Positions 1 through 45,031 of a DNA stretch of 64,000 nt are shown here, piece after piece (within the stretch, counting starts at the first letter, position 1; each line of letters begins with the position of its first letter). The position numbers were made by a program, and so were the translations under genes. Source of the DNA: Methanolinea mesophila (lineage in GTDB: Archaea > Halobacteriota > Methanomicrobia > Methanomicrobiales > Methanospirillaceae); the NCBI RefSeq assembly GCF_017873855.1, contig NZ_JAGGKR010000001.1:1803529-1867528 (forward strand). The letters are read 5' to 3'. The notes under the pieces were generated by a model. That model was given only the letters and a program-made list of their open reading frames with translations, was not told the DNA's origin and made no database searches.

Positions 1-2
1 TC

Positions 3-452: not shown

Positions 453-454
453 AA

Positions 455-3274: not shown

Positions 3275-3353
3275 TTCCTTTCAATCTCGTCTGGATGAGT
3301 ATGAAATTCAATAAATCCCTTGTTTTAACTTTGGATTCAATTTTGATATAAAA

Positions 3354-3405: not shown

Positions 3406-3413
3406 TATCAGCA

Positions 3414-3917
3414 ATGGCAGATTTTGTCCAGACCAACAACACCAAGACCGCAGTGCGTGAACTTGCCGTCCCAATTGCGGACGTCAATACGTTCAACGGC
3501 ATCATCCAGGCGGTCCTCACGGACAACCCGTGGGAATGTACCGCATACATCCAGAACGACGTGCAGCAGGACCCCGTCATGCGGAGCAAGGACGCCTACA
3601 CCGCCCGTATCATCTACCAGGACAACGAGGCAGACACCGTAGGCTACGTGACCGCCCGGGCCCAGACCATCGCCGGGTTTTCCGCGAGCATCACCGAGCT
3701 CCTGGCAAACGAGGCGCTCACCGCCGCAATGGGTGGAGACCCCGTCCGCGACGCCGAGCGGGACAGCTTCTCCTGCACCCTGAAGTGCCACGACGCTTCC
3801 GGGGAGATCTACTACGTGGCGTTCACCCGGGACCGAGTCACCGTCTCTTCCTACAGCGACGACGCCATTCTGACGGCCGTGGAGACCTGGGCCGACACCG
3901 TGCCCGCCCTGGCCTGA
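3414..3917 (+). CDS. Hypothetical 167-residue protein of a mobile-element-like gene set
   Basis: I do not recognise the family. The protein is soluble-looking and acidic, with no signal peptide, membrane segment or clear motif. It mixes aliphatic and aromatic stretches in its second half (SGEIYYVAFTRDRVTVSSY) that could be beta strands. The ATG start has a GGAG RBS 8 bases upstream. The gene is GC-rich, unlike the AT-rich res gene before it, and is followed by two more unrecognised GC-rich small genes (3966, 4149). Such runs of short orphan genes in an island are typical of integrated viral or plasmid DNA. The two alternative frames over the same bases have poorer starts and arginine-rich shadow composition. 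Confidence 0.6.
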   Translation: MADFVQTNNTKTAVRELAVPIADVNTFNGIIQAVLTDNPWECTAYIQNDVQQDPVMRSKDAYTARIIYQDNEADTVGYVTARAQTIAGFSASITELLANEALTAAMGGDPVRDAERDSFSCTLKCHDASGEIYYVAFTRDRVTVSSYSDDAILTAVETWADTVPALA

Positions 3918-3965
3918 TCAGGACCGGACCGAGAATAACCAATTTCCTCACAGGGAGGGAGGGCC

Positions 3966-4088
3966 ATGAACGAGATGATCATGTTCCTCCTCGGGATGAG
4001 CTTCGGAGGGCTCCTGATGTTGTTCATCATCCTCCGGCTCATCGCAGGAATGCACGACCGGCTGGAACAGAACCTGGGGAAGCGGTGA
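3966..4088 (+). CDS. Small single-pass membrane protein (40 residues)
   Basis: ATG at 3966 follows a strong purine-rich RBS (GGGAGGGAGGG). The 40-residue product begins with MNEMIMFLLGMSFGG, continues as one hydrophobic helix of about 23 residues, and ends in a charged tail (HDRLEQNLGKR), giving a simple N-out or N-in anchored peptide. It lies 48 bases after the 167-residue gene and 60 bases before the next one, all on the same strand, so the three probably form one transcript. Small hydrophobic proteins of this shape occur in archaeal proviruses (holin-like or regulatory), but no function can be assigned. Confidence 0.5.
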   Translation: MNEMIMFLLGMSFGGLLMLFIILRLIAGMHDRLEQNLGKR

Positions 4089-4148
4089 ACTCTTTCCCGC
4101 TTTCCCTTCATCGCCATGCGACGGCCCGCCCCTCCCGGGAGTTTTATC

Positions 4149-4577
4149 ATGGAGCAGGATTTAGTCCAGATTTTCGAGTTGTTTCTCGCCCTCGCAGCGG
4201 CCGTGGTCGCCTTCTGGCAGCACCGGCAGAAACTCGTTGCGGTGGACGCCAAGGACGAGGCCCTTATCGAGCGGGACCTGGCCGAGGCCCGGCAGTGGGA
4301 AACGGAAGCGCTGAAGGACAATGTGATCTCGTTCTTCGACCCGGAAGACGAGTCGGTGGTCAAGGCCCCGCCCGAAGTGGCGGCCAGGTCCTGGAAGATG
4401 ACCGACGAGACGAAGAAGTGGGTCATCTGCGGGCACTCGCCCGAGGACCAGGCATCGCTGCTGAAGCAGATCGCGGATGCCGAAGGGCAGAAGAAGATCC
4501 AGTACCTAATCTCGGTGCCCGGGTGCTACTACGAGATCGAGTACGGGTTACTGAAGGGAGGTGGGAAAGGGGGGTGA
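4149..4577 (+). CDS. Hypothetical protein with N-terminal membrane anchor (142 residues)
   Basis: The start chosen is the ATG at 4149 (MEQDLVQIFELFLALA), preceded by GGGAG; an in-frame ATG 33 bases upstream gives a proline/arginine-rich leader and looks spurious. One N-terminal hydrophobic helix (about residues 8-25) is followed by a charged, probably coiled segment (KDEALIERDLAEARQWETE) and a soluble C-terminal part with a Gly/Lys-rich end. This resembles small membrane-anchored proteins of mobile elements, but I do not recognise the family. It follows the 167- and 40-residue genes in the same direction and shares their high GC content, which drops sharply immediately afterwards. Confidence 0.55.
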   Translation: MEQDLVQIFELFLALAAAVVAFWQHRQKLVAVDAKDEALIERDLAEARQWETEALKDNVISFFDPEDESVVKAPPEVAARSWKMTDETKKWVICGHSPEDQASLLKQIADAEGQKKIQYLISVPGCYYEIEYGLLKGGGKGG

Positions 4578-4605
4578 ATATCCCTTTTTCTCTCTACAGG
4601 AATTC

Positions 4606-4661
4606 ACTATTCATTTACTGTCGCCTTGCCGAATATAATTAAATATTTTTTAATGAATAGT
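4606..4661. promoter_or_regulatory. 10-bp perfect inverted repeat spanning the promoter of the 4673 gene
   Basis: ACTATTCATT at 4606-4615 and its exact complement AATGAATAGT at 4652-4661 enclose 36 bases that contain an AT-rich TATA-like stretch (AATTAAATATTTTTT). The second arm ends 11 bases before the ATG at 4673. This is the layout of an operator pair around a promoter, or of a long hairpin leader. Binding by the product itself is an inference. Confidence 0.5.
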
Positions 4662-4672
4662 AATATCTTAAT

Positions 4673-5965
4673 ATGAAAATATTGCTCCGAAATTATGAGG
4701 GATGGGGCTTATTTACTTTAAAGGAAGGTAAGCCACTGAAAATAATTTCATATTTTCATCTCCATTTTTTTTCAAATGGTTCAGCAGAAATACAATGCGA
4801 TTTGAGCAAAGCTCATACGAGAATACTCCAAGATTTTTCATCACCTAATTTCACGTATTTTTCAATGATTGGAATTATTGAAGATTCCGAGTATTTCATC
4901 ACCATCGATGAATTAGCCACTATTGAATTAAATAAACTGCTAGTTTCGAGCTCTATTATTCTTAGATCTAAATATGGAGATTTTGATGCTGGAATTGCTA
5001 GAAATGGAATCACTAATTTAGAATTTTTCGGTTGTTATTACAGAAAGAAAGATGATAAGGCTGTTCTTGATACAGTTGATCTAAAATTTGAGGATTTTGT
5101 CCTTCAGATTCAGAGAATTAACAATTACGATCATGTGATTAAAGAAATTAAAAATTCTCAAATAGCAAACGTGACCGCAGAAATAATCGTTCCAGTAACA
5201 TTAGGCAATCGAGAATCTCGAGAAGAGCTAATAGAGGATATTACTCACTTATTATCTTTCGCCGTTTCAAACGAGGTTCTTGTAATTTATCGTGATTACT
5301 ATTTATCCAATGGAGATATTTTTTTTACAGAATTGCTTTGTCGACATGATGTGAATTTCTCAAATTCGATTCCTATTTTACCTATTAATCATCCAATACC
5401 TTGTAATTTAGAAGAATTCTTGAAGCATTCTATTCCAAGATATCATGAATACCGCGATAATTTAGATTTGAATGCATTGATATATTTCGTAATTAATGCA
5501 AATTCGCCCTTAATTGCATTAGAGTTAAAATTTTTGATTTCCTTCACCGGGATTGAAACCTTTTGCAGTGATTTCGAGAGTTTAGGACAAGGTGTGATTC
5601 CCAGGCGTTCAATCGAAAGAAATGAAAAAATAATTCAACAATTCTTCGATAAAAAGAAAATAAAAATTGAAGAATCAGTCATGAAAGAACTTGCCATTAA
5701 AGTTGCATTTCCGCATCCAGACTTAAAAGATAAAATGCGCCTTGCACTTTCTGCATTCTCTATCCCTTTTGATGATGATGATATGAATCTTGTTTCGATA
5801 AGAAATGAAATTGTCCATAACGGACAATTTAAATCTGAAAAGAACCCTCTGGAATTAACTTTCAGGGCCCAGAATCTTTTAATCAGAATCTTATTGTCGG
5901 TTTTGAATTACCATGGTAAATATATCAAAAGATCAATAGGTTATCGACAGATTGAGTTTCCTTGA
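4673..5965 (+). CDS. Protein with C-terminal HEPN-like domain (430 residues), possible defence effector
   Basis: The AT-rich gene encodes a soluble protein whose last hundred residues carry a HEPN-type RX4H motif (SIRNEIVHNGQF, Arg377 to His382) in a helical context, as in ApeA-like and other HEPN ribonucleases. The N-terminal 300 residues are rich in aromatic beta-strand-like segments and are not recognised. HEPN proteins commonly act as metal-independent RNases in abortive infection or toxin-antitoxin systems. Supporting context is the upstream restriction system, the convergent second RX4H protein at 6008, and the inverted repeat over its promoter. The start ATG lacks a strong RBS, so the message may be leaderless. 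A structural role of the HEPN fold without RNase activity remains possible. Confidence 0.6.
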   Translation: MKILLRNYEGWGLFTLKEGKPLKIISYFHLHFFSNGSAEIQCDLSKAHTRILQDFSSPNFTYFSMIGIIEDSEYFITIDELATIELNKLLVSSSIILRSKYGDFDAGIARNGITNLEFFGCYYRKKDDKAVLDTVDLKFEDFVLQIQRINNYDHVIKEIKNSQIANVTAEIIVPVTLGNRESREELIEDITHLLSFAVSNEVLVIYRDYYLSNGDIFFTELLCRHDVNFSNSIPILPINHPIPCNLEEFLKHSIPRYHEYRDNLDLNALIYFVINANSPLIALELKFLISFTGIETFCSDFESLGQGVIPRRSIERNEKIIQQFFDKKKIKIEESVMKELAIKVAFPHPDLKDKMRLALSAFSIPFDDDDMNLVSIRNEIVHNGQFKSEKNPLELTFRAQNLLIRILLSVLNYHGKYIKRSIGYRQIEFP

Positions 5966-6007
5966 TGTTTTTTATTGATATTTCTGGTAATATTTATCGA
6001 TTAAATA

Positions 6008-6781
6008 CTATTCAGAAAGTTTTTGATATGCTACTTTAAACCAAGGCCCATTTCCCTGGTTCTTTTCGAAATATTCAAGCATATTTATTCCTATAAATGC
6101 AATTTTCTTTACATCCAAACTTAAAAATTCGTAAAATAAGGATTGTTCTTTGGTTTTATTTTTAGGATATGCCTTCTGGGACTTTAGATGCAAAATATTA
6201 TTGCGTATTTCTTTTATTGTTAGATATTCATTCCACAATCCCGGGTTTTCATTATTTATTGGTTTCTGTGATAGTAATTTTGGTAATATTTCTAATATCT
6301 TTTTATCTGTAGAAATCCAGTCGCTCTGCAGTTGTAATGCATTATAATTCTTAATTTTATTTTTTATTTTTATTGGAAAAGTTTTCGTCACTTTTCGCTC
6401 AATGACGCTGTTGCAATATGTGTCAATCGATTGAAGAGTAAATGTAACCGCGATCATACAGTACTCAAAAAAATCGTAGAGATGAGGTAAATTTTCGTTT
6501 GCAACGTTTTTCCCCGTGCCATACGGATTGTTTTGAAAAGCAATAGTTTTCCGTAATTTTTTTGCCTTTATTGCAGAATTAATCGCAATATCCATTGCTA
6601 GTTTGAATGGAGCCGGGGTGATAAATCCAATTAATTCACCATTAGAGTCACGAGAAACGGTATTAACATAAGCAATTTCGCCTGGAATAAATGACGGTTT
6701 CCCGGGCACCGGGGGCGGAAAGACACCCGTAACCCTTAAATAAGCTTGGACTCGCCAATCGATTGGCTCAATATCGCTCAT
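6008..6781 (-). CDS. Second HEPN-motif protein (257 residues), convergent with the first
   Basis: This AT-rich gene on the opposite strand ends 42 bases from the 430-residue gene. Its product is mostly helical, with a proline-rich N-terminal segment and an RX4H motif (KEIRNNILHLKS, Arg193 to His198) near residue 195, the position and neighbourhood expected for a HEPN catalytic motif. I do not recognise a named family. The convergent pairing with another HEPN-motif gene and the adjoining restriction genes suggest a defence or toxin-like role, but the two need not interact. The ATG at 6781 is preceded by an imperfect inverted repeat rather than a clear RBS. Confidence 0.55.
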   Translation of the reverse strand: MSDIEPIDWRVQAYLRVTGVFPPPVPGKPSFIPGEIAYVNTVSRDSNGELIGFITPAPFKLAMDIAINSAIKAKKLRKTIAFQNNPYGTGKNVANENLPHLYDFFEYCMIAVTFTLQSIDTYCNSVIERKVTKTFPIKIKNKIKNYNALQLQSDWISTDKKILEILPKLLSQKPINNENPGLWNEYLTIKEIRNNILHLKSQKAYPKNKTKEQSLFYEFLSLDVKKIAFIGINMLEYFEKNQGNGPWFKVAYQKLSE

Positions 6782-6788
6782 AAATATG

Positions 6789-6836
6789 CATATTCTTCGA
6801 AAATCGCATGAAACTTTTCCTTAAACGAAGCATATG
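6789..6836. promoter_or_regulatory. Inverted repeat upstream of the 257-residue HEPN-motif gene
   Basis: CATATTCTTCG at 6789-6799 pairs with CGAAGCATATG at 6826-6836, one mismatch in 11. It begins 7 bases upstream of the start codon of the minus-strand gene, mirroring the repeat over the promoter of its convergent neighbour although the sequences differ. An operator or hairpin role is inferred. Confidence 0.35.
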
Positions 6837-6850
6837 AATAACATCCCCCC

Positions 6851-7040
6851 AATGTTCGTTCCGGTCGCTGGTCCGCTCCTCCTGGCGTCCGGTGCTCCCT
6901 TCTCCATTCGCTCACAACGTGGGGCTGATTTTACCGGTTCATCCTGATATGATGAAGGCCATGCTCGCTCAAGCATTCGCTTCGCATCGTCTGCCATTCC
7001 CGCTCCTCGCAGATTGTTTTACAGACTGCTCGTCGCTGAG
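6851..7040 (+). repeat. GC-rich dispersed repeat, copy A
   Basis: About 190 bases beginning near TTCGTTCCGGTCGCTG and ending CAGACTGCTCGTCGCTGAG. It matches copy C (10483-10672, opposite strand) along its whole length by eye, with shared blocks such as GTCCGCTCCTCCTGGCGTCC, CTCACAACGTGGGGCTG and CATTCGCTTCGCATCG. It matches copy B (7432-7628) at its two ends. None of the copies holds a convincing reading frame. The tail contains a near-tandem CAGACTG motif. Confidence 0.75.
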
Positions 7041-7041
7041 T

Positions 7042-7290
7042 TCAAGACGGAATATGAACCCCATCGCCATAAAATGACCAGTAAAGGAGCGTGAATATCA
7101 GGATTACAAACAACAACAGCCAAAACGAGATTAAAACAACAAAGAGGGGAACGTTCATTATTCCGAGAGAACGGTAAATCGCCCCGTAAATCGCAATCAG
7201 GTAGCCCATCCAGAGGTTAATAGTGATTGCTCCCAGATGGACCGGAACCCAGGACCAGGGAAGTTCAGTTTCACCCTCCATACGAATCAT
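7042..7290 (-). CDS. Possible small two-helix membrane protein (82 residues)
   Basis: From ATG at 7290 (or 7281) the minus strand encodes a product with two hydrophobic segments: about residues 15-35 (HLGAITINLWMGYLIAIYG) and residues 42-70 (VPLFVVLISFWLLLFVILIF). A longer frame reaches 7500, but its N-terminal part crosses a hairpin and repeat B and looks noncoding. The stop codon lies directly beside copy A of the repeat. No family is recognised and the RBS is weak. It could be a real membrane peptide or a decayed fragment. Confidence 0.35.
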   Translation of the reverse strand: MIRMEGETELPWSWVPVHLGAITINLWMGYLIAIYGAIYRSLGIMNVPLFVVLISFWLLLFVILIFTLLYWSFYGDGVHIPS

Positions 7291-7367
7291 ATTGAAAACA
7301 CACCACGAAGAACCTGTCTTGTCGCACCGTCCTCGTACAAAAAGACGGAGCGTCTCTTTTGCATGCA

Positions 7368-7389
7368 TTGAGGGGCAAACCCCCCTCAA
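7368..7389. terminator. Strong hairpin, possible terminator
   Basis: TTGAGGGG at 7368-7375 pairs perfectly with CCCCTCAA at 7382-7389 across a 6-base loop, followed by AT-rich sequence. It sits upstream of the small minus-strand membrane ORF and before copy B of the repeat. It may end transcription from either side or be part of a structured noncoding RNA. Confidence 0.35.
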
Positions 7390-7431
7390 ATTTAATGTAA
7401 CTGCAACATTATCGAGGCATAACGGCCCGTA

Positions 7432-7628
7432 GTGTTCGTCTCCGTTTCGCTTCGTCCGCTCCTCCTCGCGTCCGGTGCTCCTTCGTTCCACTCCGCTCAC
7501 ACATCGGGCCTGCCTTTCCTCCCTTCCTAGGTGTCAGATGACGCCCGCGAGTTCGTCACAGGCTCCTCTCCCGCCGGCTGCAGGGTCTCGCTCCTCACAG
7601 ACTGTTTCACAGACTGCTCGTCGCTGTG
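7432..7628 (+). repeat. GC-rich dispersed repeat, copy B (diverged)
   Basis: It shares with copy A the head (GTCCGCTCCTCCTCGCGTCC, GGTGCTCC, CGCTCACA, GGGCCTG) and the tail (CAGACTGTTTCACAGACTG followed by CTCGTCGCTG). The middle, which in A and C reads CATTCGCTTCGCATCG, has diverged. It is in the same orientation as copy A. The following 200 bases (7630-7820) are GC-rich, hold several inverted repeats and contain no credible gene. Confidence 0.65.
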
Positions 7629-7853
7629 TCCTGGATCTCGACGCTCGGTGACTCGCTCCCTCTGGTCGCTCGGGCCGCTGTGGCCCGCCCGGCTCCCCTA
7701 CGGTCGCCAGATTCCCACTCCCCCGCCCTTGCGTCGCGCCGGGGGATAGGCGAGTATCCCCCTCTCTCCGCACCCTCTGGGCCAGGCTCCTCCTCTCCAG
7801 GGGAGAGGCAGTGAAGAGGATATAGCCCTTCGGGCAAAAACTAAATAAAATGG

Positions 7854-8771
7854 TTGAAATTATTTAAAAATTTTAATATAGATAAAAAATCAAGAAAAAA
7901 TTCAATGAATAACTTATTAGACTATTTAAAATGTAACAATTCATTTAAAATTTTGACACTTTTATTGGTCATAATTTTCATTTTACCTTTGGTCTGGTCA
8001 ATTATTTTCTATAACGTTCCAGAAAACGTCCAAACATCATTGAAATTAAGTGTAAATAATACTCAAATATGGCAATATTTCACCCATAGTTTTGTTCATA
8101 ATGATTTAACTCATCTCCAAAACAACCTCGAGACATATTTTATTGCAATAATTTTTGGTTTAATTTTTGCATTATTATCAAAAAATTTAAAAATTTTCCT
8201 CATACTAGTGTTACTATCAATTTTTATTTTCCCTCCGATATGGGGAATTTTAAAGGTTTTTTTCCTTAATGGTTTATTTCCGTCATCTTATGAATGTGGA
8301 AGCTCTGGGGTAATTGCAGCCCTTTTAGGGATAGTACCTGTGTTTTTTATATTATCATTTAGTAAATACACTGGAAAATCGTTGTTATTTCAAGAATACT
8401 TTTATTTTTTCTTAATTTACATAGTCTTTTTTTTCCAAGATACTTATAAAACAATGGATATCTCCCCATTTTTAATGGGAATATATATTGCCTCTCTTTT
8501 GGCTCTTTTCATTGTTATATTCTTTTATATCTATCATATCCGCCAAGCATTGGATTCCAAAAAGTTATTCATTTTAACATTATTTTCATTAATGCTCTTT
8601 TTATTGATTTATACCATTTTTATTGGTTTCTTTTTCCCGCAACAGTTAGTATCTTTAGGAGGCCGTACGGCTATTGAAACGCACTACGTTGGTCTTGTTT
8701 TTGGATTATTTGTATCCTATTCACTTGTTATTTTATCACAGAATACTTCTTTTTCATGGTTAAGGTGCTGA
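7854..8771 (+). CDS. Rhomboid-family intramembrane serine protease
   Basis: The AT-rich gene encodes a 305-residue polytopic membrane protein with the rhomboid signatures: HNDLTHLQNN (His82, His87, Asn91) after the first helix, the GSSG nucleophile motif with Ser151 (ECGSSGVIAALLG), and the catalytic His277 (ETHYVGLVFG) in a late helix, giving a Ser/His dyad. Rhomboids cut other membrane proteins within the bilayer. The reading frame opens with TTG at 7854; an ATG at 7905 (MNNLLDYLKC) is an equally good start and neither has a clear RBS. It lies alone between copy B of the repeat and the phage-like operon at 8958, and its low GC content contrasts with both. Substrate unknown; in an island it could process a toxin, receptor or signalling protein. 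Confidence 0.82.
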   Translation: MKLFKNFNIDKKSRKNSMNNLLDYLKCNNSFKILTLLLVIIFILPLVWSIIFYNVPENVQTSLKLSVNNTQIWQYFTHSFVHNDLTHLQNNLETYFIAIIFGLIFALLSKNLKIFLILVLLSIFIFPPIWGILKVFFLNGLFPSSYECGSSGVIAALLGIVPVFFILSFSKYTGKSLLFQEYFYFFLIYIVFFFQDTYKTMDISPFLMGIYIASLLALFIVIFFYIYHIRQALDSKKLFILTLFSLMLFLLIYTIFIGFFFPQQLVSLGGRTAIETHYVGLVFGLFVSYSLVILSQNTSFSWLRC

Positions 8772-8957
8772 TCTAGGTTTTTCATTTTTTTAGATTAAAC
8801 GACACCCAATAGAACTTCCAGAAACATGATGGATGGGAGAAATTAACCCCTGTGAACTTACCTTATGATTGCATTAAGAATAACTTTGTATTACTTTCAC
8901 ACCGCGAGGCGACCTTATATTATAACTCCAGTCCAAGACTATGTGGTGACAAACACC

Positions 8958-9353
8958 ATGAGTCCTACAACTATATTCAGCCACATCGGCAGCGTGAAGC
9001 AGTCCGATGGAGTACTCCGCATCGACATCAAGACCATGCAGGCCGTGATCGCACGGTCCGATGTGTCCCAGCTCCTCGACCACTACCCGGTGGACGTCTA
9101 TAACATGGCGGACATCATCCAGACATGCGGATCTCCCGAGAAGGTCGGCCGGGCCTGGATGGCTAGGTCGGGGAAGTCGGTCGTCTTCCATATCAACGGC
9201 TTCCGGTATGTCTCACCCCTCGCCCAGGTGAAGGGGTTGCTGAACGGCACCCGGAAATACGCCCACGTGGCGATAATGCTGGAAAAGGAAGCACCCGCTG
9301 CGGATGCACCCTCCTCCTGCCCGGCAGGAATGACCGCGGAGGCCTCGGCATGA
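8958..9353 (+). CDS. Hypothetical protein (131 residues), first gene of a mobile-element-like operon
   Basis: The start chosen is ATG 8958 (MSPTTIFSHIGSVKQSDG), with GGTGA 9 bases upstream; the frame is open further upstream but that part reads as untranslated AT-rich leader. The protein is soluble, with a probable beta-rich N-terminal half and a tail rich in alanine, proline and serine. No family is recognised. Its TGA overlaps the ATG of the next gene (ATGA), so translation is coupled. The 15 bases around its start (CACCATGAGTCCTAC) recur at 10262-10276 beyond the end of the operon. Confidence 0.6.
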   Translation: MSPTTIFSHIGSVKQSDGVLRIDIKTMQAVIARSDVSQLLDHYPVDVYNMADIIQTCGSPEKVGRAWMARSGKSVVFHINGFRYVSPLAQVKGLLNGTRKYAHVAIMLEKEAPAADAPSSCPAGMTAEASA

Positions 9354-9589
9354 GTGCCCAGGTAATAGTGCAAAGCAATGGGCGCCAGCCCCGGGTGGTG
9401 ACTTTCACCACTACCAATCTCGAATGGCTTGATGCCATCCGGGAAGAATATAACCGGCGCTTTGAGCACGACCTTACTATCGAGCAGGTCCTCGATTATG
9501 CAATCATCAGTGAGATCTGGTCCTTGTCTCGCGAGATGTACCTGAGCGAAGAACAGACATTCCGCATCGGAATACAGGGGGATCTGTAG
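9350..9589 (+). CDS. Hypothetical 79-residue protein, possible small regulator
   Basis: ATG at 9350 overlaps the previous stop by 4 bases. The product has a basic N-terminal strand-like part (RVVTFTTTNLEWLDAI) followed by two helices (REEYNRRFEHDLTIEQVLDYAI). This strand-helix-helix order and size would fit a ribbon-helix-helix DNA-binding protein, but I see no diagnostic motif, so that is only a suggestion. It sits 2 bases before the DUF6573-like gene in a tight four-gene run. Confidence 0.55.
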   Translation: MSAQVIVQSNGRQPRVVTFTTTNLEWLDAIREEYNRRFEHDLTIEQVLDYAIISEIWSLSREMYLSEEQTFRIGIQGDL

Positions 9590-9591
9590 GT

Positions 9592-10026
9592 ATGGACCTC
9601 ACCACCCCTTTCTCCAACGATGAGATCATCTTTGCCTACACCCGTGCCGATGCCATCCGGGACGGGGTCCTGGTCGAAATCCCCGAGGACCTCCTCAAGG
9701 AAGTAGGCATCAGGGTCCCGGTCGCAGTTACCCAGGCGGTATGGGACTACCTCTGCCCCGAGGACCTGGACGAGTTACCGGGCCAGAGCGTCGAGGGCAG
9801 GACCTGGGACCTGCTGTGGATGTTCAGCCGGGCAGCAGCCCGGTCCCGCAATTCTTCAAAGGTCCTGTTCCGGATCGCGTTCCTCCTGATGAATGAGTAT
9901 TCAGAACGGGGTCAGATCCTGCTCTCGAGCGAGCCCAGAGAGCAACTGATCACGCTGAAAGCACTATGTGGACCGGGAGATGAAGGGGAGCCAGTGATTA
10001 CCATTATGCTCCCCGGGGAGGACTAA
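9592..10026 (+). CDS. DUF6573-like protein (144 residues)
   Basis: The N-terminal half, with FAYTRADAIRDGVLVEI followed by VGIRVPVAVTQAVWDYL, matches the characteristic pattern of DUF6573 proteins, small proteins found on plasmids, phages and integrative elements near replication and partition genes. Their function is unknown. ATG start 2 bases after the previous stop, and the excisionase-like gene begins 4 bases after its own stop. Composition and spacing tie it to the mobile-element operon 8958-10243. The family assignment is from remembered sequence pattern; a profile search would settle it. Confidence 0.65.
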   Translation: MDLTTPFSNDEIIFAYTRADAIRDGVLVEIPEDLLKEVGIRVPVAVTQAVWDYLCPEDLDELPGQSVEGRTWDLLWMFSRAAARSRNSSKVLFRIAFLLMNEYSERGQILLSSEPREQLITLKALCGPGDEGEPVITIMLPGED

Positions 10027-10030
10027 CTCA

Positions 10031-10243
10031 ATGGAAGAACCGATGCCAGAGAAAACCGGGGATGATATAATATCCGCCCCAATTTTTTATACCACGGACC
10101 AGGTGGCGGATATCCTTCATGTTCATATCAAAACGGTGCGCGAACTGATTAAAGCAAAGAAACTGAAAGCGGTGAAGATAGGAAACGAATACCGGATAAC
10201 AGGGGAACAGCTCAGGCGGTTTGCAGAGGAGAATGAAACGTGA
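10031..10243 (+). CDS. Excisionase-type helix-turn-helix protein (70 residues)
   Basis: The product contains a MerR-like winged HTH of the excisionase (HTH_17) family: YTTDQVADILHVHIKTVREL forms the helix-turn-helix and KLKAVKIGNEYRITGEQLRR the wing and following helix. Such proteins direct recombination or act as small repressors in integrative elements. It is the last gene of the four-gene operon. No integrase follows within the window, so this is either a relic of an element, an element mobilised in trans, or a plain regulator. Confidence 0.8.
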   Translation: MEEPMPEKTGDDIISAPIFYTTDQVADILHVHIKTVRELIKAKKLKAVKIGNEYRITGEQLRRFAEENET

Positions 10244-10265
10244 CCGGGAGATCTCCGGTGCCACC

Positions 10266-10361
10266 ATGAGTCCTACGTCAATGAGAACACCGGTCGCGAC
10301 CCGGTCGCATTATTCTTGGATTTTCACCCGCAAAGAGGTTTTCCGTTCTCCTTTGGATTAG
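10266..10361 (+). CDS. Very short ORF after the excisionase gene, possible gene remnant
   Basis: ATG 10266 to TAG 10361 encodes 31 residues starting MSPTSMRTPVATRSHYSW. The start region duplicates 15 bases of the start of the 8958 gene. There is no good RBS and no recognised family. It may be a truncated gene, possibly left by a rearrangement that copied the start region, or chance. Confidence 0.18.
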   Translation: MSPTSMRTPVATRSHYSWIFTRKEVFRSPLD

Positions 10362-10482
10362 GACCATCCCGTTGGTTTCGCTCCAATCGGAGCGATAGGG
10401 GACCGAAGCGGAGCGCAGTGTCGCCTGGCGGAAGGCCCGTGGAGCCCTGGAAGGAGCCGCGAGCGGGAGCGGGAGGCGGCGA

Positions 10483-10672
10483 CTCAGCGACGAGCAGTCT
10501 GCGGAGCAGTCTGCGAGGAGTGAGAAGGCAGGCGATGCGAAGCGAATGAATAAGCGAGCATGGCCGTCATCCTATCGGGGTGAACCGGGAGAAGCAGCCC
10601 CACGTTGTGAGTGCAGGGAGAGCGGGAGCACCGGACGCCAGGAGGAGCGGACCGGCGACTGGAGCGAACATG
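10483..10672 (-). repeat. GC-rich dispersed repeat, copy C (inverted relative to A)
   Basis: Read on the minus strand it aligns end to end with copy A (6851-7040): GTCCGCTCCTCCTGGCGTCC, CTCACAACGTGGGGCTG, GGCCATGCTCGCT, CATTCGCTTCGCATCG and the CAGACTGCTC tail, here present as a 12-base tandem (GCAGACTGCTCC, GCAGACTGCTCG). Together A and C form long inverted repeats around 3.4 kb that include the rhomboid gene and the excisionase operon. The flank 10370-10480 is also GC-rich with small hairpins (CGCTCC/GGAGCG at 10379-10394). Confidence 0.75.
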
Positions 10673-10703
10673 GTGGGGCGTCTTATAAATTAAATAGGAA
10701 TAA

Positions 10704-10853
10704 TCAGAAAAAGGTCTCCTCTTCCTCATAGTCAGGATGTTTTTTCCTAGGTCTTCCCCTTTTGCCGGTTCCACCACACGCTTCACATTCAACTAAGCCA
10801 TGTGTCATATCATATTTTCTACCGGTCCCATTACACGCGCTACAAATACCCAT
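10704..10853 (-). CDS. 49-residue zinc-finger miniprotein with CxxCxGxG motifs and AT-hook-like tail
   Basis: The minus strand from ATG 10853 to TGA 10704 encodes two DnaJ-type CxxCxGxG motifs (CSACNGTGRK and CEACGGTGKRGRP), a basic GRPRKK stretch like an AT-hook, and an acidic end (DYEEEETFF). Two such motifs can bind one zinc ion; the fold in DnaJ and similar proteins binds unfolded protein or nucleic acid. AT-rich codon use matches the neighbouring 119-residue and caspase-like genes rather than repeat C just downstream. The gene is too short for usual length cut-offs. Function unknown; I am confident of the frame because the Cys/Gly pattern is so regular. Confidence 0.7.
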   Translation of the reverse strand: MGICSACNGTGRKYDMTHGLVECEACGGTGKRGRPRKKHPDYEEEETFF

Positions 10854-10957
10854 AATTATTTTTAAAGAACCAATGAGATAAATCTTTTACCGGATGCATA
10901 AATGGGTTGAATGGGTTCCAATGACATGAAAAAGGCATTGGTATGAGGAAAAAATAA

Positions 10958-11317
10958 CTAAGTTTTAGGCGAAAATTCCTCCAGATTTCCTATATTTTTA
11001 TCCCTAACGTCTAGAATTTCAAATTGGGAGTTTATTAAATAAGTAAACTGTTCTCGAATTGGATATGCCGTTTCGAATGCGGGTTTCCCTTCTCTGGTTA
11101 TAGTGCCCAGTCCAGATGGTTTTTTACTAAAATAGGTCTTTATTAAAATTGGTAGTTGGAGATTTTTCTCTTGGATTAAAGGAATAATCTCGGATTTAAT
11201 TTTCTCTTCATTCACCTGCCCCTCCCCATAATCCTTTGTCGAATTCATTGGAATAACGATATCTCCATTTAACTCTGCATAATACAAACCCCACTTGGCC
11301 CTAGCTGACATGGGCAT
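10958..11317 (-). CDS. Hypothetical 119-residue protein divergent from the caspase-like gene
   Basis: No family recognised. The protein is soluble, starts MPMSARAKWGLYYAELNG and appears to have alternating strands and helices, ending in an acidic tail (DKNIGNLEEFSPKT). ATG start at 11317; no strong RBS, compatible with a leaderless message. The start codon lies 39 bases from the ATG of the divergently transcribed membrane-anchored gene, so they share one promoter region and could be a functional pair, for example regulator or inhibitor and effector. AT-rich, as in the other defence-like genes of the island. Confidence 0.55.
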   Translation of the reverse strand: MPMSARAKWGLYYAELNGDIVIPMNSTKDYGEGQVNEEKIKSEIIPLIQEKNLQLPILIKTYFSKKPSGLGTITREGKPAFETAYPIREQFTYLINSQFEILDVRDKNIGNLEEFSPKT

Positions 11318-11356
11318 TTAATTAATGATAGGTTATTGAAAAATGTATTGGAAAAT

Positions 11357-12118
11357 ATGTCCCCTATGGCAAATGATTGTAAAAATCTGATTATTGAGTT
11401 GCTACAAATAGTCCAGATGATTATTCAAGTAGGGTCATTGGTATCAGTCATTATTTTTCCTCCATTTTTTATTGTTTTCTTAATAACTTTAGGAAATTAT
11501 TTTCTAAGTCTGGCGATAGGGTTAGGAATACCGGTATTTCTCTCGTTTCTAGCTCTAATTTTTTATGTGAAAAAGGCAACAGATACGATAAAATTAGTAC
11601 AAAAATATCCTGAATACAATAATCAAAATTTTCACCATGCTATAATCATAGCTTATCGAAAGCCTTTCAATGATGAAAATAGAAAAATTCGCTCTAATAT
11701 GGATGGAATAGATATTTTAATAAACAGATTTAGAAACAATCCTCTCCCCCTTAATTATAAGATATATGAGGTGGATTCAAGAGAGAATGCCCAGAAAGTA
11801 ATTTGCGATCCAAAAACAACGCATTTATGGATTTTTGGACATGGGCAGAGAAATAAACTAAGGTTATCTGACGGTGACCTATGTTATTATGAGGTAAAAG
11901 ACGCCAAAAAAAAGATATTTATTGGACAATATCATTGCAATTCGATTCTCGGTAAAAGTTTAGCGGATTATAATAATCCTGACAATTCAGATGTAACTCG
12001 ATGGAATAGAATTACACCATTAATTCGGTTCTCGGTAGGAAAGAAATTGGACGAATTGACTAAAAATAATATGATTGAACCAAATGAAACATTTTCAGAT
12101 GGGAACTGTAACTCTTAA
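11357..12118 (+). CDS. Membrane-anchored protein with caspase-like (clan CD) His/Cys signature
   Basis: Start ATG 11357 (a TTG at 11336 would add seven residues). Two hydrophobic helices occupy about residues 13-70 (ELLQIVQMIIQVGSLVSVII; GLGIPVFLSFLALIFYV). The cytoplasmic-side domain that follows has the pattern of a clan CD/caspase-like hydrolase: strand then Gly-His-Gly (THLWIFGHGQ, His about 162), and roughly 30 residues later strand then Cys (KKIFIGQYHCNS, Cys about 194). An earlier strand (HHAIIIAYRKPF) fits the Rossmann-like core. The membrane helices and island context suggest a sensor or effector in immunity, where CHAT and caspase-like proteases kill or signal. Sequence similarity is limited to these motifs, so the fold is a prediction. 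Confidence 0.5.
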   Translation: MSPMANDCKNLIIELLQIVQMIIQVGSLVSVIIFPPFFIVFLITLGNYFLSLAIGLGIPVFLSFLALIFYVKKATDTIKLVQKYPEYNNQNFHHAIIIAYRKPFNDENRKIRSNMDGIDILINRFRNNPLPLNYKIYEVDSRENAQKVICDPKTTHLWIFGHGQRNKLRLSDGDLCYYEVKDAKKKIFIGQYHCNSILGKSLADYNNPDNSDVTRWNRITPLIRFSVGKKLDELTKNNMIEPNETFSDGNCNS

Positions 12119-33848: not shown

Positions 33849-33889
33849 TTTAAATATAATGAATAAAAGGCTGTATAGAGGAGCGATTT
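33849..33889 (+). promoter_or_regulatory. Promoter and RBS of the upstream ORF of the decarboxylase operon
   Basis: TATA-like TTTAAATATA at 33849-33858 is followed 25-30 bases later by AGAGGAGCG, a strong ribosome binding site, and ATG at 33890. The spacing suggests a very short leader. Confidence 0.55.
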
Positions 33890-34114
33890 ATGAAATGTAA
33901 TTATCCAGTAAAAAAATCAATTATTTTTGATATTCCCGGTTTTCCGGATCCCTGCTTTCCTCTCAGTTACTCCCGGCAAAGTGCATTTTATCCGATAGGA
34001 GGCATATCCCCGGAGGGTTTGGACATGACTGGTGAACCGAGAAATAGCCCCGCAACAGTCTGGAACGAAACGGGGAGTGCACGGCCACTCAAGTCGGACG
34101 GGGGATATGCATGA
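33890..34114 (+). CDS. Upstream ORF (74 residues) overlapping the decarboxylase start
   Basis: ATG 33890 has an AGGAG RBS six bases upstream and a TATA box about 35 bases upstream. The stop TGA (34112-34114) overlaps the ATG of the decarboxylase gene (34111), giving ATGA coupling. The peptide begins MKCNYPVKKSIIFDIPGF and is rich in Pro and aromatic residues in its first half (GFPDPCFPLSYSR); it has no known domain. It may be a small protein in its own right or a leader whose translation sets expression of the decarboxylase. The alternative is that it is an AT-rich leader with a chance frame; the strong RBS and overlap argue against that. Confidence 0.5.
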   Translation: MKCNYPVKKSIIFDIPGFPDPCFPLSYSRQSAFYPIGGISPEGLDMTGEPRNSPATVWNETGSARPLKSDGGYA

Positions 34115-36417
34115 ACCCGGAGGAGGAGGTCGTAGTAGCCATCATTGATGATACCATCGCGACCGATACCCCGCACGGGCGAACGATCGCCCGCATTATC
34201 AAGGGCATGACCGAGTACGATATCCAGGTCTTCACCATCGCTTCGCTCGAGGGTGCCCGGTCCGCGTATGCCAATCTCCCTGACGTGGACTGTATCCTGA
34301 TCAACTGGAGCCTGGGCGGTTCGCCCACACATGACGCCGCAAAAGAACTGATCGGTGAAATCAGGCAGAGAAACGAGGATATCCCGATCTTCCTTATGTC
34401 GGAACCCCTCGGGGTAGGCGAGGCCGAGCTGGACGTCGATACGATCCGGGAGATAAACGAGTACATTTACATCATGGAAGACACCCCTGAGTTTATCGCC
34501 GGTCGTATCAGGGCTGCCGCAAACAGGTACAAGGAAAGACTGCTCCCTCCATTCTTCGGGGCCCTGGTAAACTTCTCGAAGGACTTCGAGTATTCATGGC
34601 ATACCCCGGGCCATGCAGGAGGGACGGCGTTCCGCAAATCTCCGGCGGGAAGGCTGTTCTTCGAGTTCTTCGGCGAGCAGCTCTTCAGGTCGGACCTCTC
34701 GATCTCGGTGGGAGAACTCGGGTCACTGCTCGACCATTCCGGCCCCCTGGGAGAGGCGGAACGGTATGCGGCCAAGGTCTTCGGTGCGGACCAGACGTAT
34801 TTTGTCACGAACGGCACGTCCACCGCAAACAAGATCGTGTTCTTCGGGAGGGTGGTCCGGGACGATATTGTCCTTGTAGATCGGAATTGTCATAAATCGG
34901 CCGAGCACGCACTCACCATGACCCATTCCGTCGCGGTCTTCATGATACCCACCCGGAACCGCTACGGGATCATCGGCCCCATCCCCCCGGAGGAAATGAC
35001 CCTCCGGAAGATCAGGTCGAAGATACGGGAATGCCCGCTGATCGAGGGACTCGGGAGTACCAAGCCGGTGCATGCAATCATCACCAATTCCACTTATGAC
35101 GGGCTCTGTTACAAGGCAACGGAAGTGGAGGCGCTGCTGGGAAAAGCCGTGGACAGTATTCATTTTGATGAGGCGTGGTACGGGTACGCCCGGTTCAACC
35201 CGCTGTACCGGGACCGGTTCGCAATGAGGGACGGTGCCCGGGACGAAAAAGGTCCGACCGTCTTTGCCACCCAGTCCACCCACAAGCTGCTTGCCGCCCT
35301 TTCCCAGGCATCAATGGTCCATGTAAGGAACGGACGGGTGCCGATCGAGCATTCCAGGTTCAACGAAGGGTTCATGATGCACAGCTCCACCTCCCCGCTC
35401 TATACCATCATGGCCTCGCTTGACGTTTCATCGAAAATGATGGACGGGGCTGCAGGGAGGGTCCTGACCACCGAATCGATCGAGGAGGCGATACGGTTCA
35501 GGCGGGTCATGGCCCGGTTGTACCGCGAGATCTGCGGCACCGCAAAGAAACCAAAGGACTGGTGGTTCGGGATGTGGCAGCCGGAAACGGTTGCCGAACC
35601 GAAGTCCGGAAAAAAAGTCGCGTTTGCCGATGCGCCGTTCGAACTGCTCAGAGATGAGCCCTCCGCCTGGGTCCTGCATCCCGGGGAGAAATGGCACGGA
35701 TTTACCGGGCTCCCTGACGATTACTGCATGCTCGACCCGATCAAGGTCACGGTGGTGATGCCCGGGGTGAAGGAGGACGGCACACTGGATACATGGGGAA
35801 TACCTGCCGCAGTGGTGGTGAAATTCCTCGACACCAGGGGGATCGTGAACGAGAAGTCCGGCGATTATATCATCCTTTTCCTCTTCTCCATGGGCAATAC
35901 CAAGGGGAAGTGGGGGACCCTTGTCACCGAGCTCTTCGAGTTCAAACGCCATTATGATGAGGAAACCCCACTGGAGGAGGTGTTCCCCGACCTCACGAAC
36001 GCATATCCCGAGCGGTACGGTGGGATGACGTTAAAGAGCCTCACCGAGGAGATGCACCGGTTCAAGAAGGAGCATGGTATGTGCGAGCTGCTCCAGCAGG
36101 CATACTCCCTCATACCCGAGCCGGCGATACCATATGCCGAAGCATACAGAAAACTCGTCCGGGGCGAGGTGGAGCAGGTCCCGGTATCGGAAGCGGGTGA
36201 CCGGGTGGTGGCGACAGGGATCTTCCCCTATCCGCCCGGGATCCCGGTACTGGCCCCCGGGGAACGGACCGGATCGCAGGACGGCCCGATCCTCCGGTAC
36301 CTGAAATCGATGCAGGATTTCGATGCCAGGTTCCCCGGGTTCGAGCATGACACCCACGGGGTTGAAAATATAAAAGGCGAATACAGGATGTATTGTATCA
36401 AAGAGGGTCGATCGTGA
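34111..36417 (+). CDS. PLP-dependent Orn/Lys/Arg decarboxylase (AdiA/LdcI type)
   Basis: The 768-residue protein has the three-part layout of the inducible bacterial basic amino acid decarboxylases: N-terminal receiver-like wing domain (residues 1-130, AIIDDTIATDTPHGRTI), PLP domain with SWHTPGHAGGTAF, VTNGTSTANKIV, and Schiff-base Lys392 in TQSTHKLLAALSQ, and a C-terminal domain. Length equals E. coli AdiA. It decarboxylates arginine, lysine or ornithine with proton consumption; which one is not determined. Archaeal methanogens usually make agmatine with a pyruvoyl-type enzyme, so this fold-I enzyme looks acquired. ATG 34111, translationally overlapping with the upstream ORF and with the GTG of the antiporter gene downstream. 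Confidence 0.88.
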   Translation: MNPEEEVVVAIIDDTIATDTPHGRTIARIIKGMTEYDIQVFTIASLEGARSAYANLPDVDCILINWSLGGSPTHDAAKELIGEIRQRNEDIPIFLMSEPLGVGEAELDVDTIREINEYIYIMEDTPEFIAGRIRAAANRYKERLLPPFFGALVNFSKDFEYSWHTPGHAGGTAFRKSPAGRLFFEFFGEQLFRSDLSISVGELGSLLDHSGPLGEAERYAAKVFGADQTYFVTNGTSTANKIVFFGRVVRDDIVLVDRNCHKSAEHALTMTHSVAVFMIPTRNRYGIIGPIPPEEMTLRKIRSKIRECPLIEGLGSTKPVHAIITNSTYDGLCYKATEVEALLGKAVDSIHFDEAWYGYARFNPLYRDRFAMRDGARDEKGPTVFATQSTHKLLAALSQASMVHVRNGRVPIEHSRFNEGFMMHSSTSPLYTIMASLDVSSKMMDGAAGRVLTTESIEEAIRFRRVMARLYREICGTAKKPKDWWFGMWQPETVAEPKSGKKVAFADAPFELLRDEPSAWVLHPGEKWHGFTGLPDDYCMLDPIKVTVVMPGVKEDGTLDTWGIPAAVVVKFLDTRGIVNEKSGDYIILFLFSMGNTKGKWGTLVTELFEFKRHYDEETPLEEVFPDLTNAYPERYGGMTLKSLTEEMHRFKKEHGMCELLQQAYSLIPEPAIPYAEAYRKLVRGEVEQVPVSEAGDRVVATGIFPYPPGIPVLAPGERTGSQDGPILRYLKSMQDFDARFPGFEHDTHGVENIKGEYRMYCIKEGRS

Positions 36418-37856
36418 GCGAAGAAACCGGTAACGAACAGAAAACAGGAATGTCACCCCCCAAGATCCTCGGGGTGTTCGCCCTGGCGATGATCAACGTC
36501 GCAGCGGTACTCAGTATCAGGAACTACCCCTCGATGGCGATGTTCGGGTGGGCATGCATCGGGTGGTACATCATAGGGACCGTGCTGTTCCTGATCCCTC
36601 TCTCCCTGGCGGCGGCGGAACTGGCGACCATGCTCTCGGACAAGGGGGGCGGCGTGTATGCATGGTGCCGGGAGGCCTTCGGGGATAAAGGCGGATTCGT
36701 GGCGATATTCTGTGAATGGTCGAATAATCTCGTATGGTTCCCTACGGTACTCGCCTTCATCGCCGCGACACTCGCGTATGCGATATCGCCCGTACTGCAG
36801 ACCGACAAGATTTATCTGTTCGTCGTGATGATGATCGCGTTCTGGGGCACGACGACGATTGCATACTTCGGGGAGAACGTCTCCACGAAGTTCCAGAACG
36901 TGGGAGTGATCCTCGGAAGTATCATCCCTTCGGTCCTGATCATCATCCTCGGGGTCTGGTGGATCGCCTCCGGCCAGCAGATGGTGCTCCCCCCCTTCTC
37001 GCCCGGCGAGATCGTCCCCACGTTGAACCTGGCCACCCTGCCGTTCTTTGCAACGGTAATCCTGCTGTTTGCAGGCATGGAGATGGCAGGCTTCCACGCA
37101 CTTGAGACGAAGAACCCGAAAACCGATTATCCCAAGGCGATAGCCCTCTCCGCGATTATCATCTTCCTCTGCACGGTCATCGCAACCCTGGCGATTGCCT
37201 TCGTAATTCCGGCAGACGACCTCAGTCTTGCCGCAGGGGTGATGCAGGCGCTCCAGTACTTCTTCGAGGCCGCGAATATTCCCTGGGCGGTCGCGCCGAT
37301 GGCGGTGCTCATCACGATCGGCGGGGCGGTCTCGCTTGCGGCATGGCTCATAGGCCCTGCAAAGGGTCTTGGGGTCGTCGCGGTGGAGGGCAACCTTCCC
37401 CCCGTGTTCAACCGGCATAACAAGTACGGGTCCCCGGTAGCGGTCCTCCTGATACAGGCGGGGATCGGGACATTCATCTCCCTGCTGTACGTATTCCTCC
37501 CGTCGGTGAACCAGGCCTACTGGATCCTCTCGGCGATCACCGTTGAACTGCTCTGTATAGTATATTTCACGATCTTTGCCGCGGTGATCAAGCTACGGTA
37601 CAGCAAACCGGATGCACCCCGACCTTTCAAGATTCCGGGAGGGCTAGCCGGAATCTGGATTATCGGGGGCATGGGGGCCTTCGGGGTAATGTTCTCGTTC
37701 CTTGTCGGGCTCATGCCGACGGGTGAGTTCACTGCAGCAGAAACGGTTTCCTATGTCCTTGGCATTCTGATCGGTACATTCCTGCTGGCGGTGCCCCCAC
37801 TGATCTTCCTGAAGATGAAAAAACCGAGCTGGGTCGAGGAGGGGGCAGGCGAATGA
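36414..37856 (+). CDS. APC family amino acid/amine antiporter (GadC/AdiC-like)
   Basis: GTG 36414 overlaps the decarboxylase stop (GTGA) with GAGGG six bases upstream; an ATG at 36393 in frame would overlap too far. The 480-residue protein has twelve membrane helices and the APC superfamily start (FALAMINVAAVLSIRNYP) with LSLAAAELATMLSDKGGGVY and GVYAWCREAFGDKGGF, which matches the glutamate:GABA antiporter-type subgroup. With the decarboxylase it should exchange an amino acid for its amine, exporting a proton equivalent or making energy, as in AdiA-AdiC. Substrate inferred from the neighbour. The gene is followed 46 bases on by an anchored protein. Confidence 0.87.
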   Translation: MSEETGNEQKTGMSPPKILGVFALAMINVAAVLSIRNYPSMAMFGWACIGWYIIGTVLFLIPLSLAAAELATMLSDKGGGVYAWCREAFGDKGGFVAIFCEWSNNLVWFPTVLAFIAATLAYAISPVLQTDKIYLFVVMMIAFWGTTTIAYFGENVSTKFQNVGVILGSIIPSVLIIILGVWWIASGQQMVLPPFSPGEIVPTLNLATLPFFATVILLFAGMEMAGFHALETKNPKTDYPKAIALSAIIIFLCTVIATLAIAFVIPADDLSLAAGVMQALQYFFEAANIPWAVAPMAVLITIGGAVSLAAWLIGPAKGLGVVAVEGNLPPVFNRHNKYGSPVAVLLIQAGIGTFISLLYVFLPSVNQAYWILSAITVELLCIVYFTIFAAVIKLRYSKPDAPRPFKIPGGLAGIWIIGGMGAFGVMFSFLVGLMPTGEFTAAETVSYVLGILIGTFLLAVPPLIFLKMKKPSWVEEGAGE

Positions 37857-43738: not shown

Positions 43739-45031
43739 TTGGCAATCGACTGGTACATGGATTTCGTGGACACAGGGTATACCCCCGGGAAGGACGAACT
43801 CGTATGCCTTTACTATTTCGAACCGGCGGAAGGCATCGGCAGGGAAGAGGCGGTGGGAAGGATCGCGTCGGAGAGCTCGACGGGTACATGGACCACCCTC
43901 TTCACCCTGCCTCCCCGGATGAAAGACCTCCAGGCCACCGCATTCCAAATCGAAGGAAATTTCGCGAAGATCGCATACCCGCTCGCGCTCTGGGAGGAGG
44001 GGAACGCCCCGCAGCTGATGAGCGGGATCGCCGGGAATATCTTCGGCATGAAGGCGCTCGCGAACCTTAGATTGATCGACGTCTCCCTTCCGGCTGAATA
44101 TATCACGCATTTCAGGGGCCCACATTTCGGTATGGAGGGTATCCGGAAGATGATGAAGGTCCACGGGAGGCCACTTACCGGGGCGGTCCCCAAGCCTAAG
44201 ATCGGGTTCTCCGCGCAGGAGCATGCCGAGGTGGGGTACGAGACCTGGATGGGCGGGTTCGATTTCGTAAAGGACGATGAAAATCTTACTTCAACTCCCT
44301 TCAACCGTTTCGAGGACCGGGTGAAACTCATGGCAAAGATGCGGGACCGGGCCGAGAAAGAGACCGGGGAGACCAAGTCCGCGTTCATAAACATCACCGC
44401 CGAAACGGAACTGATGAAGAAAAGGGCCGAATTCCTTGCGGATTACGGCTGGAATTATGCCATGATCGATGTCGTTGTCGCCGGAACCGCCGCGGTCTCC
44501 ACCCTCCGGGACCACTGTTCCGACCTTGGGCTGGCGATCCATGCCCACCGGGCCATGCATGCCGCGTTCGACCGGGACCAAAAGCACGGCATCACCATGC
44601 AGTTCCTCGCAAAGCTGATGCGCCTTATCGGGGTTGCCCAGATCCATACCGGGACCGCGGTCGGCAAGCTTGCGGGAACGAAGAAGGAGTCTCTGCTCCT
44701 GGCGAACCTCCTCCGGGAGCAAAAGACAGAAGCGTCGGGGAACATGCTCCTGGAGCAGGACTGGGGGGGGATAAAAAGTGCATTTCCGGTCTCTTCGGGA
44801 GGGCTTCACCCGGGGCTGGTCCCGGAAGTACTCGATATTTACGGCATCGACCTGGTGCTCCTGGTGAGCGGAGGGATCCACGGGCATCCTGACGGAACAA
44901 GGGCAGGAGCGACGGCGACCATGCAGGCCATCGAAGCCTGGAGCGAAGGGATTACCCTGGATGAAAAAGCGGGGACTTCACACGAGCTCGCCAGGGCGCT
45001 GGAGAAATGGGGCTATTACAGGCCAAAATAG
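43739..45031 (+). CDS. rbcL: Form III ribulose-1,5-bisphosphate carboxylase/oxygenase (RuBisCO)
   Basis: The 430-residue protein carries the catalytic set: Lys152 in TGAVPKPKIG, the carbamylation motif GGFDFVKDDEN with Lys178, Asp180 and Glu181, the HAHRAMHAA loop, loop 6 Lys in TGTAVGKLAG, and SSGGLHPG. Length and sequence match archaeal form III enzymes. The start TTG 43739 is chosen since GGAG lies 7 bases upstream and the residues MAIDWYMDFVD resemble family N-termini; the next ATG is 43757. In methanogens it fixes CO2 onto RuBP from nucleotide salvage (AMP pathway) or the reductive hexulose-phosphate cycle. No phosphoribulokinase or AMP phosphorylase gene lies nearby, so the pathway cannot be fixed here. 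It is monocistronic. Confidence 0.93.
   Translation: MAIDWYMDFVDTGYTPGKDELVCLYYFEPAEGIGREEAVGRIASESSTGTWTTLFTLPPRMKDLQATAFQIEGNFAKIAYPLALWEEGNAPQLMSGIAGNIFGMKALANLRLIDVSLPAEYITHFRGPHFGMEGIRKMMKVHGRPLTGAVPKPKIGFSAQEHAEVGYETWMGGFDFVKDDENLTSTPFNRFEDRVKLMAKMRDRAEKETGETKSAFINITAETELMKKRAEFLADYGWNYAMIDVVVAGTAAVSTLRDHCSDLGLAIHAHRAMHAAFDRDQKHGITMQFLAKLMRLIGVAQIHTGTAVGKLAGTKKESLLLANLLREQKTEASGNMLLEQDWGGIKSAFPVSSGGLHPGLVPEVLDIYGIDLVLLVSGGIHGHPDGTRAGATATMQAIEAWSEGITLDEKAGTSHELARALEKWGYYRPK

Follow-up and report, generated by a model that had tools for sequence, protein, structure and literature searches.

We describe a pair of overlapping genes in the methanogen Methanolinea mesophila that probably constitutes a module in which arginine:agmatine exchange is coupled with decarboxylation. 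Such a virtual proton pump would work like the AdiA-AdiC system of E. coli. The pair lies in a 64,000-nucleotide stretch of contig NZ_JAGGKR010000001.1 (positions 1,803,529 to 1,867,528; the window, whose coordinates are used below), and all features described for the locus are on the forward strand. The upstream gene (34111..36417, ATG start, 768 residues) encodes a winged, extended-form basic amino acid decarboxylase of the Adc/AdiA subfamily that depends on pyridoxal phosphate (PLP). The downstream gene (36414..37856, GTG start, 480 residues) encodes an APC-superfamily antiporter of the GadC branch that has no C-plug. To equate the pair with AdiA-AdiC itself fails on the antiporter.

Both reading frames are intact and share the four bases GTGA (36414..36417), which hold the stop of the decarboxylase gene and the start of the antiporter gene. 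The GTG at 36414 was adopted as the antiporter start, and a longer TTG start at 36393 set aside, because relatives align from the GTG. The host genome (G000) carries the alpha subunit gene of methyl-coenzyme M reductase and is thus that of a methanogen, so that the original prediction of a PLP decarboxylase and an APC antiporter overlapping in such an organism holds. The nearest named loci are those of Methanoregulaceae.

According to the mechanism we propose, the two genes form one operon and the antiporter would import arginine. The decarboxylase, expected to be of the decamer type, would convert it to agmatine and CO2 with the consumption of one cytoplasmic proton, and the agmatine would then be exported against the next arginine, presumably one for one. 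The net removal of protons and outward movement of positive charge could help to control pH or contribute to the proton-motive force.

Identity and phylogeny of the decarboxylase

The three Pfam domains of the family were found within the single chain of 768 residues, all above their cut-offs: the N-terminal wing OKR_DC_1_N (residues 23-140, 34177..34530; 85.5 bits), the major PLP domain OKR_DC_1 (residues 146-599, 34546..35907; 529 bits) and the C-terminal OKR_DC_1_C (residues 626-753, 35986..36369; 152 bits). Lys392 (codon 35284..35286) lies in a THK motif and aligns with Lys386, the PLP lysine of AdiA/Adc according to the available part of PMC8983666. The best solved relatives were Adc from Providencia (807 bits), AdiA from E. 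coli (803 bits), 6q6i from P. aeruginosa (711 bits) and LdcI (547 bits), and the best NCBIfam model was the arginine decarboxylase PRK15029 (914.8 bits, against 662 for the lysine model). Residue 397, five positions past the PLP lysine, is Leu, as in the two Adc references. This site is Phe in the lysine decarboxylase (LDC) references, in ornithine decarboxylases (ODCs) and in a group of methanogen enzymes of about 50% identity (the f4/f5 enzymes).

Decarboxylase trees of 67, 63, 32 and 24 sequences were constructed; for these, as for all our trees, near-duplicates were thinned by hand-picked selection. L159, whose frame is broken, was omitted from all decarboxylase trees, and the long-branched L188, L152 (two sequences), L089, L173 and L187 were cut from the 63-sequence tree and kept in the 67-sequence one. 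The decarboxylase fell in the clade of the characterised Adc enzymes, with E. coli AdiA and Providencia Adc (98/95; 98/97), away from P. aeruginosa LdcA, LdcI, E. coli CadA and ODC. Together with the PRK15029 match, this upholds the prediction of an AdiA-type decarboxylase. Its own clade (98/95 and 97/96 in the 32- and 24-sequence trees) brings together the f1 sequences of Methanoregulaceae, those of other Methanomicrobiales families (f5, f6), gut methanogens of the Methanocorpusculum type (f3), Methanomassiliicoccales and a single bacterium, Slackia; we regard it from these trees as old and almost wholly archaeal. In the sister clade, E. coli AdiA, Providencia Adc and proteobacterial AdiA-like enzymes are found together with sequences from Chloroflexota, Thermoleophilia and Methanothrix.

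Identity of the antiporter

The antiporter matches Pfam AA_permease_2 (188.7 bits). In each comparison it scored higher against GadC than against AdiC: 407.7 and 69.7 bits, respectively, with the NCBIfam models, 188 and 65 bits in the sequence match to the PDB, and Z 38.9 and 34.2 (best AdiC entry) in fold, for which an AlphaFold model of the antiporter (mean pLDDT 78) was used. GadC is thus the closest solved structure by sequence (27% identity) as well as by fold, and in the tree the AdiC, CadB and PotE-like sequences form a separate clade with full support. These results assign the antiporter to the GadC branch of APC exchangers and not to the AdiC-like ones, and this part of the original prediction, an AdiC-type antiporter, has to be abandoned. 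The GadC equivalog cut-offs were missed (407.7 of 650, 403.4 of 640 and 223.5 of 673.5 bits), as was that of AdiC (69.7 bits against 574).

The AdiC gate residues Trp293, Glu208 and Tyr365, which GadC shares, are kept in the antiporter as Trp311, Glu223 and Tyr384. Trp202 of the AdiC proximal gate corresponds to Leu217, and the site of AdiC Ser26 is a gap. According to the parts of PMC4970712 and PMC5983779 available, the distal gate of AdiC consists of Tyr93, Glu208 and Tyr365; at these sites the antiporter has Glu101, Glu223 and Tyr384. Glu101 (codon 36714..36716) corresponds to AdiC Tyr93, in an alignment of transmembrane helix 3 that is uncertain by a few residues, and to GadC Gly95, in an alignment that is ungapped there. 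The site is Glu in all 26 sequences of the three nearest paired groups (Methanoregulaceae-type, Methanothrix/Chloroflexota and Thermoleophilia); two actinobacterial groups have Asp throughout (six sequences), and most remaining GadC-branch sequences have Gln.

Leu380 (codon 37551..37553) occupies the site of GadC Tyr378, which we take to be the substrate-contact tyrosine of the pocket. Tyr was found at this site in none of the 34 Adc-paired sequences and in 20 of the 20 sequences of the GadB-paired, Chlamydiae/Verrucomicrobia, methanogen paralog, f6 paralog and E. coli GadC groups; it is also absent from unpaired second copies of Methanocorpusculum and from Pseudonocardia-type sequences. The antiporter chain stops 13 residues past its last helix and the tail of E. 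coli GadC, described as carrying a C-plug in the available text of PMC4970712, is longer.

Taking into account that the best named families of the antiporter are those of GadC, and that genes resembling glutamate decarboxylase adjoin the lower-identity relatives L175 and L184, we considered an exchange of glutamate and gamma-aminobutyrate (GABA), or of other acidic or neutral substrates, unrelated to the decarboxylase. We judge this very unlikely. GadB occurs in the flanks of 0 of 47 relatives whose antiporter has 54% identity or more, and the neighbour in the window, in a tight operon, is an Adc-type basic amino acid decarboxylase. Glu101, Leu380 and the missing C-plug likewise argue against glutamate exchange. 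AdiC-type transporters, as far as the available part of PMC4970712 goes, use aromatic and not acidic residues owing to their acid setting; the carboxylate of Glu101 and the absence of a C-plug suggest that the antiporter works nearer to neutral pH than AdiC or GadC.

Conservation of the gene pair

Fifty-four decarboxylases were considered, namely the listed full-length matches of at least 56% identity in Methanomicrobiales, with partial matches and the f4/f5 enzymes omitted. In 44 of them an antiporter gene lies directly downstream on the same strand, and the pair of G175 overlaps. A genome scan kept 80 loci from 173 relatives. In 47 of them the antiporter reaches at least 54% identity, and an OKR decarboxylase is present in the flank of 44 of these, two of the other three (L118, L156) starting at a contig edge. 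Antiporters of lower identity had a flanking OKR decarboxylase in 5 of 14 and 5 of 19 cases. After antiporters with fewer than 380 and decarboxylases with fewer than 600 aligned residues had been dropped, the commonest spacing among relatives was -4, in a set of loci that is partly redundant. Because relatives repeatedly show the same gene order with a spacing near zero, the arrangement is not a matter of chance. The same pair was also found in Methanothrix, Methanomassiliicoccales, Chloroflexota, Thermoleophilia and Slackia. Genomes with the f4/f5 enzyme had antiporter matches no better than E 1e-10, except for G087, a genome that has a single antiporter along with decarboxylases of both kinds.

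Other arrangements were noticed among methanogens. In loci L075 (5963-8260), L080 (5378-7699), L189 and L193, the flank fetched around the different winged decarboxylase of the f4/f5 methanogens, which groups with P. aeruginosa LdcA and is possibly a lysine decarboxylase, contained no related APC antiporter. A 636-residue tyrosine decarboxylase-like protein (Pfam tyr_de_CO2_C, a match determined for L199) is flanked on both sides by GadC-branch antiporters (L199:5093-7003), and L200 and L205 are similarly laid out, making up a second kind of decarboxylase/exchanger module. Second GadC-branch copies in genomes of the Methanocorpusculum type (L157:4424-5800, L161:4277-5752) have an aldehyde dehydrogenase gene immediately upstream, not a decarboxylase gene.

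Arginine:agmatine exchange and its alternatives

Several findings weigh against arginine:agmatine exchange. The decarboxylase does not reach the equivalog cut-off of PRK15029 (1167 bits), and for that reason we class it as a relative within the AdiA subfamily and not as an AdiA equivalog. At 70 columns that separate two known arginine decarboxylases (ADCs) from two known LDCs, it matches ADC at 13, LDC at 38 and neither at 19. Ten of the 54 decarboxylase relatives were without an intact antiporter seen adjacent (the antiporter of G151 is broken, the contig of G017 stops a short way past the gene, and for the remaining eight the stretch seen has other genes there or none), so the decarboxylase may be used without the antiporter. 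Glu101 is not conserved in the gut group, Slackia included, where six of eight sequences have Ser.

The column counts would suit a lysine (or ornithine) decarboxylase serving a lysine:cadaverine (or ornithine:putrescine) exchanger, as would the score of 6q6i, 711 bits against 803-807 for AdiA and Adc; we take 6q6i to be LdcA, with a lysine function. We nevertheless consider such a pair unlikely, since the trees put the decarboxylase among the Adc enzymes, apart from LdcA, CadA and ODC, and the enzyme of the f4/f5 methanogens is another one, which clusters with LdcA (87/85; 97/94). At the 70 columns, most of the non-ADC states look ancestral and seem to have been lost from enteric AdiA. Since the enteric enzyme is derived, the comparison was dropped as uninformative on arginine or lysine specificity. 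On the remaining evidence, the substrate is most likely arginine.

The decarboxylase might alternatively supply polyamines, the antiporter acting mainly as an arginine importer and agmatine being kept for putrescine or for the agmatidine of tRNA. The original prediction had noted that methanogens generally use a pyruvoyl ADC, which agrees with our survey: PvlArgDC is present in 213 of 232 Methanomicrobiales genomes, and the host has one such gene besides the PLP enzyme. The host genome also encodes, near 97.8 kb of C1 (L212:517-2508), a 663-residue fusion of an N-carbamoylputrescine amidase-like half, recognised by eye, followed by an agmatine deiminase (Pfam, 402 bits). This AguB-AguA fusion, apparently a two-step enzyme from agmatine to putrescine, favours the supply of polyamines, as do the relatives that retain the decarboxylase without an antiporter. 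On the other hand, its gene lies 1.74 Mb from the operon, the pyruvoyl ADC is already there, and the pair shows no enrichment in genomes without PvlArgDC, so that we find this use of the pair improbable. No gene of the arginase/agmatinase family was found in the host genome. Without the pair, the host can still produce agmatine and, probably, putrescine; with the pyruvoyl ADC and the fusion present the pair seems unneeded for these products, and arginine:agmatine exchange becomes its likely use. Of the five AA_permease_2 genes in the host genome, the next best match to the antiporter has 26% identity.

Loss of the pyruvoyl ADC as the reason for the PLP enzyme was also considered and rejected, as the host has both and no enrichment was seen in the order. 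Among seven high-quality genomes without PvlArgDC, three have the window-type decarboxylase, one the f4 type and three neither. A role of the pyruvoyl ADC itself in pH regulation has been proposed for Methanomassiliicoccales, according to the available part of PMC7824343.

Horizontal transfer and partner exchange

The original prediction regarded the pair as probably acquired horizontally. What stands is that the family has moved between domains. In approximately unbiased (AU) tests, whose groups were named after earlier trees had been seen, a single clade of the window-side archaea and Methanothrix was rejected (p-AU 7e-28), and archaea therefore acquired the Adc family at least twice, Methanothrix separately. 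What does not stand is a recent or isolated acquisition of the window gene: the phylogeny suggested as a check on the prediction places the decarboxylase in its old, nearly all-archaeal clade spanning several Methanomicrobiales families and Methanomassiliicoccales, and no compositional sign of recent transfer was seen in the pair (G+C 0.582, against 0.562 for the window from 12 to 64 kb). Among 391 genomes sampled across the phylum, 59 had matches, 52 of them Methanomicrobiales; outside this order, only four genomes yielded a full decarboxylase of this kind (two Methanothrix-type, two f8).

The Slackia decarboxylase (L149; gut Actinomycetota, 64% identity) is nested among archaeal ones, a possible archaeon-to-bacterium transfer judging from the tree; keeping Slackia outside the archaeal clade was weakly rejected (p 0.026). 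Contigs labelled Bacteroidetes or Patescibacteria (L131, L144, L176) also bear copies, and L131 (decarboxylase 77%, antiporter 70%) is within the Methanoregulaceae range and looks mis-binned.

The trees of the two genes conflict at depth. In the decarboxylase tree the window group joins the gut archaea and Slackia (97/96), and its union with the group of Chloroflexota, Methanothrix, Thermoleophilia and Proteobacteria is rejected (p 0.0002). The antiporter tree rejects the union of the window and gut groups (p 1e-7), and joins the window group to Chloroflexota/Methanothrix (100/99) and less firmly to Thermoleophilia (92/94). The conflict leads us to conclude, from these trees, that at least one exchange of partners took place without a change in gene order. 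This agrees with the available account in PMC8983666, in which the genes around adc are not conserved and horizontal transfer has strongly shaped Adc.

Most branches within the Adc clade carry a GadC-branch partner. An AdiC/PotE-branch antiporter was found in the fetched stretch of five of six proteobacterial loci (E. coli, Burkholderia, Rhizobium, Pseudomonas and Vibrio); some of these may serve an adjoining ornithine decarboxylase, and in Lichenicola such an antiporter is annotated next to the pyruvoyl ADC. The AdiC partner may thus be a newcomer, in a proteobacterial sample that is thin (E. coli and plasmid records). We raise, tentatively and as something rather less probable than the exchange module itself, the possibility that the GadC-branch exchanger is the older Adc partner, kept by archaea, Chloroflexota and Actinomycetota, and that enteric AdiA-AdiC arose by a later swap. 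Arginine:agmatine exchange would in that case have evolved a second time, independently, in the GadC-branch subfamily, in an exchanger with a distal-gate carboxylate and no C-plug, used in methanogens as a near-neutral proton-motive-force or pH device and not in extreme acid defence.

Other features of the window

A candidate TATA-like promoter element, TTTAAATATA (33849..33858), lies about 250 bases 5' of the decarboxylase start. AT boxes occur near the equivalent position in several of nine aligned leaders of relatives; these leaders did not align past the AT box, and no Rfam element was found in the leader at E up to 1. Positions 1-12000 of the window have a G+C of 0.43, against 0.56 elsewhere, and few long ORFs (one of 939 residues), and look like a foreign island. 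A 430-residue ORF (43739-45031) resembles, by eye, a RuBisCO large-chain family protein.

Discussion

The pair resembles E. coli AdiA-AdiC in its winged Adc-subfamily decarboxylase, its APC-fold exchanger partner and the reaction expected. It differs in that the partner there is of the AdiC/CadB/PotE type and here of the GadC branch, in that the E. coli locus is adiA-adiY-adiC whereas here the genes overlap with no AdiY-type regulator between them, and in that the derived motifs of enteric AdiA are absent from the window decarboxylase. From GadC, its closest solved structure, the antiporter is set apart by an Adc and not a GadB partner, by the missing C-plug, by Leu in place of Tyr378 and by the extra distal-gate Glu. 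P. aeruginosa LdcA is also winged and has several motifs in common with the window enzyme, but falls outside its clade and groups with the f4/f5 methanogen enzymes that lack the antiporter.

A PLP arginine decarboxylase of a methanogen, Methanomicrococcus blatticola, has been described in PMC8503589. In the available part of that paper it is the first verified archaeal PLP ADC, a wingless enzyme of 483 residues, unlike the extended window enzyme with its REC-like wing, and no antiporter is mentioned for it. The same part describes wingless and pyruvoyl archaeal ADCs and assigns the extended forms to Proteobacteria and Firmicutes. It also takes it that extended decarboxylases and homologous antiporters for basic amino acids and diamines evolved together, an assumption that the present locus does not simply fit. 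No description of a GadC-branch antiporter paired with an Adc decarboxylase was found in the open-access literature searched. If our assignment is true, a decarboxylase/antiporter virtual proton pump would be widespread in methanogens, one decarboxylase family would have been combined with exchangers of two branches, and an arginine exchanger would probably have arisen twice within one fold.

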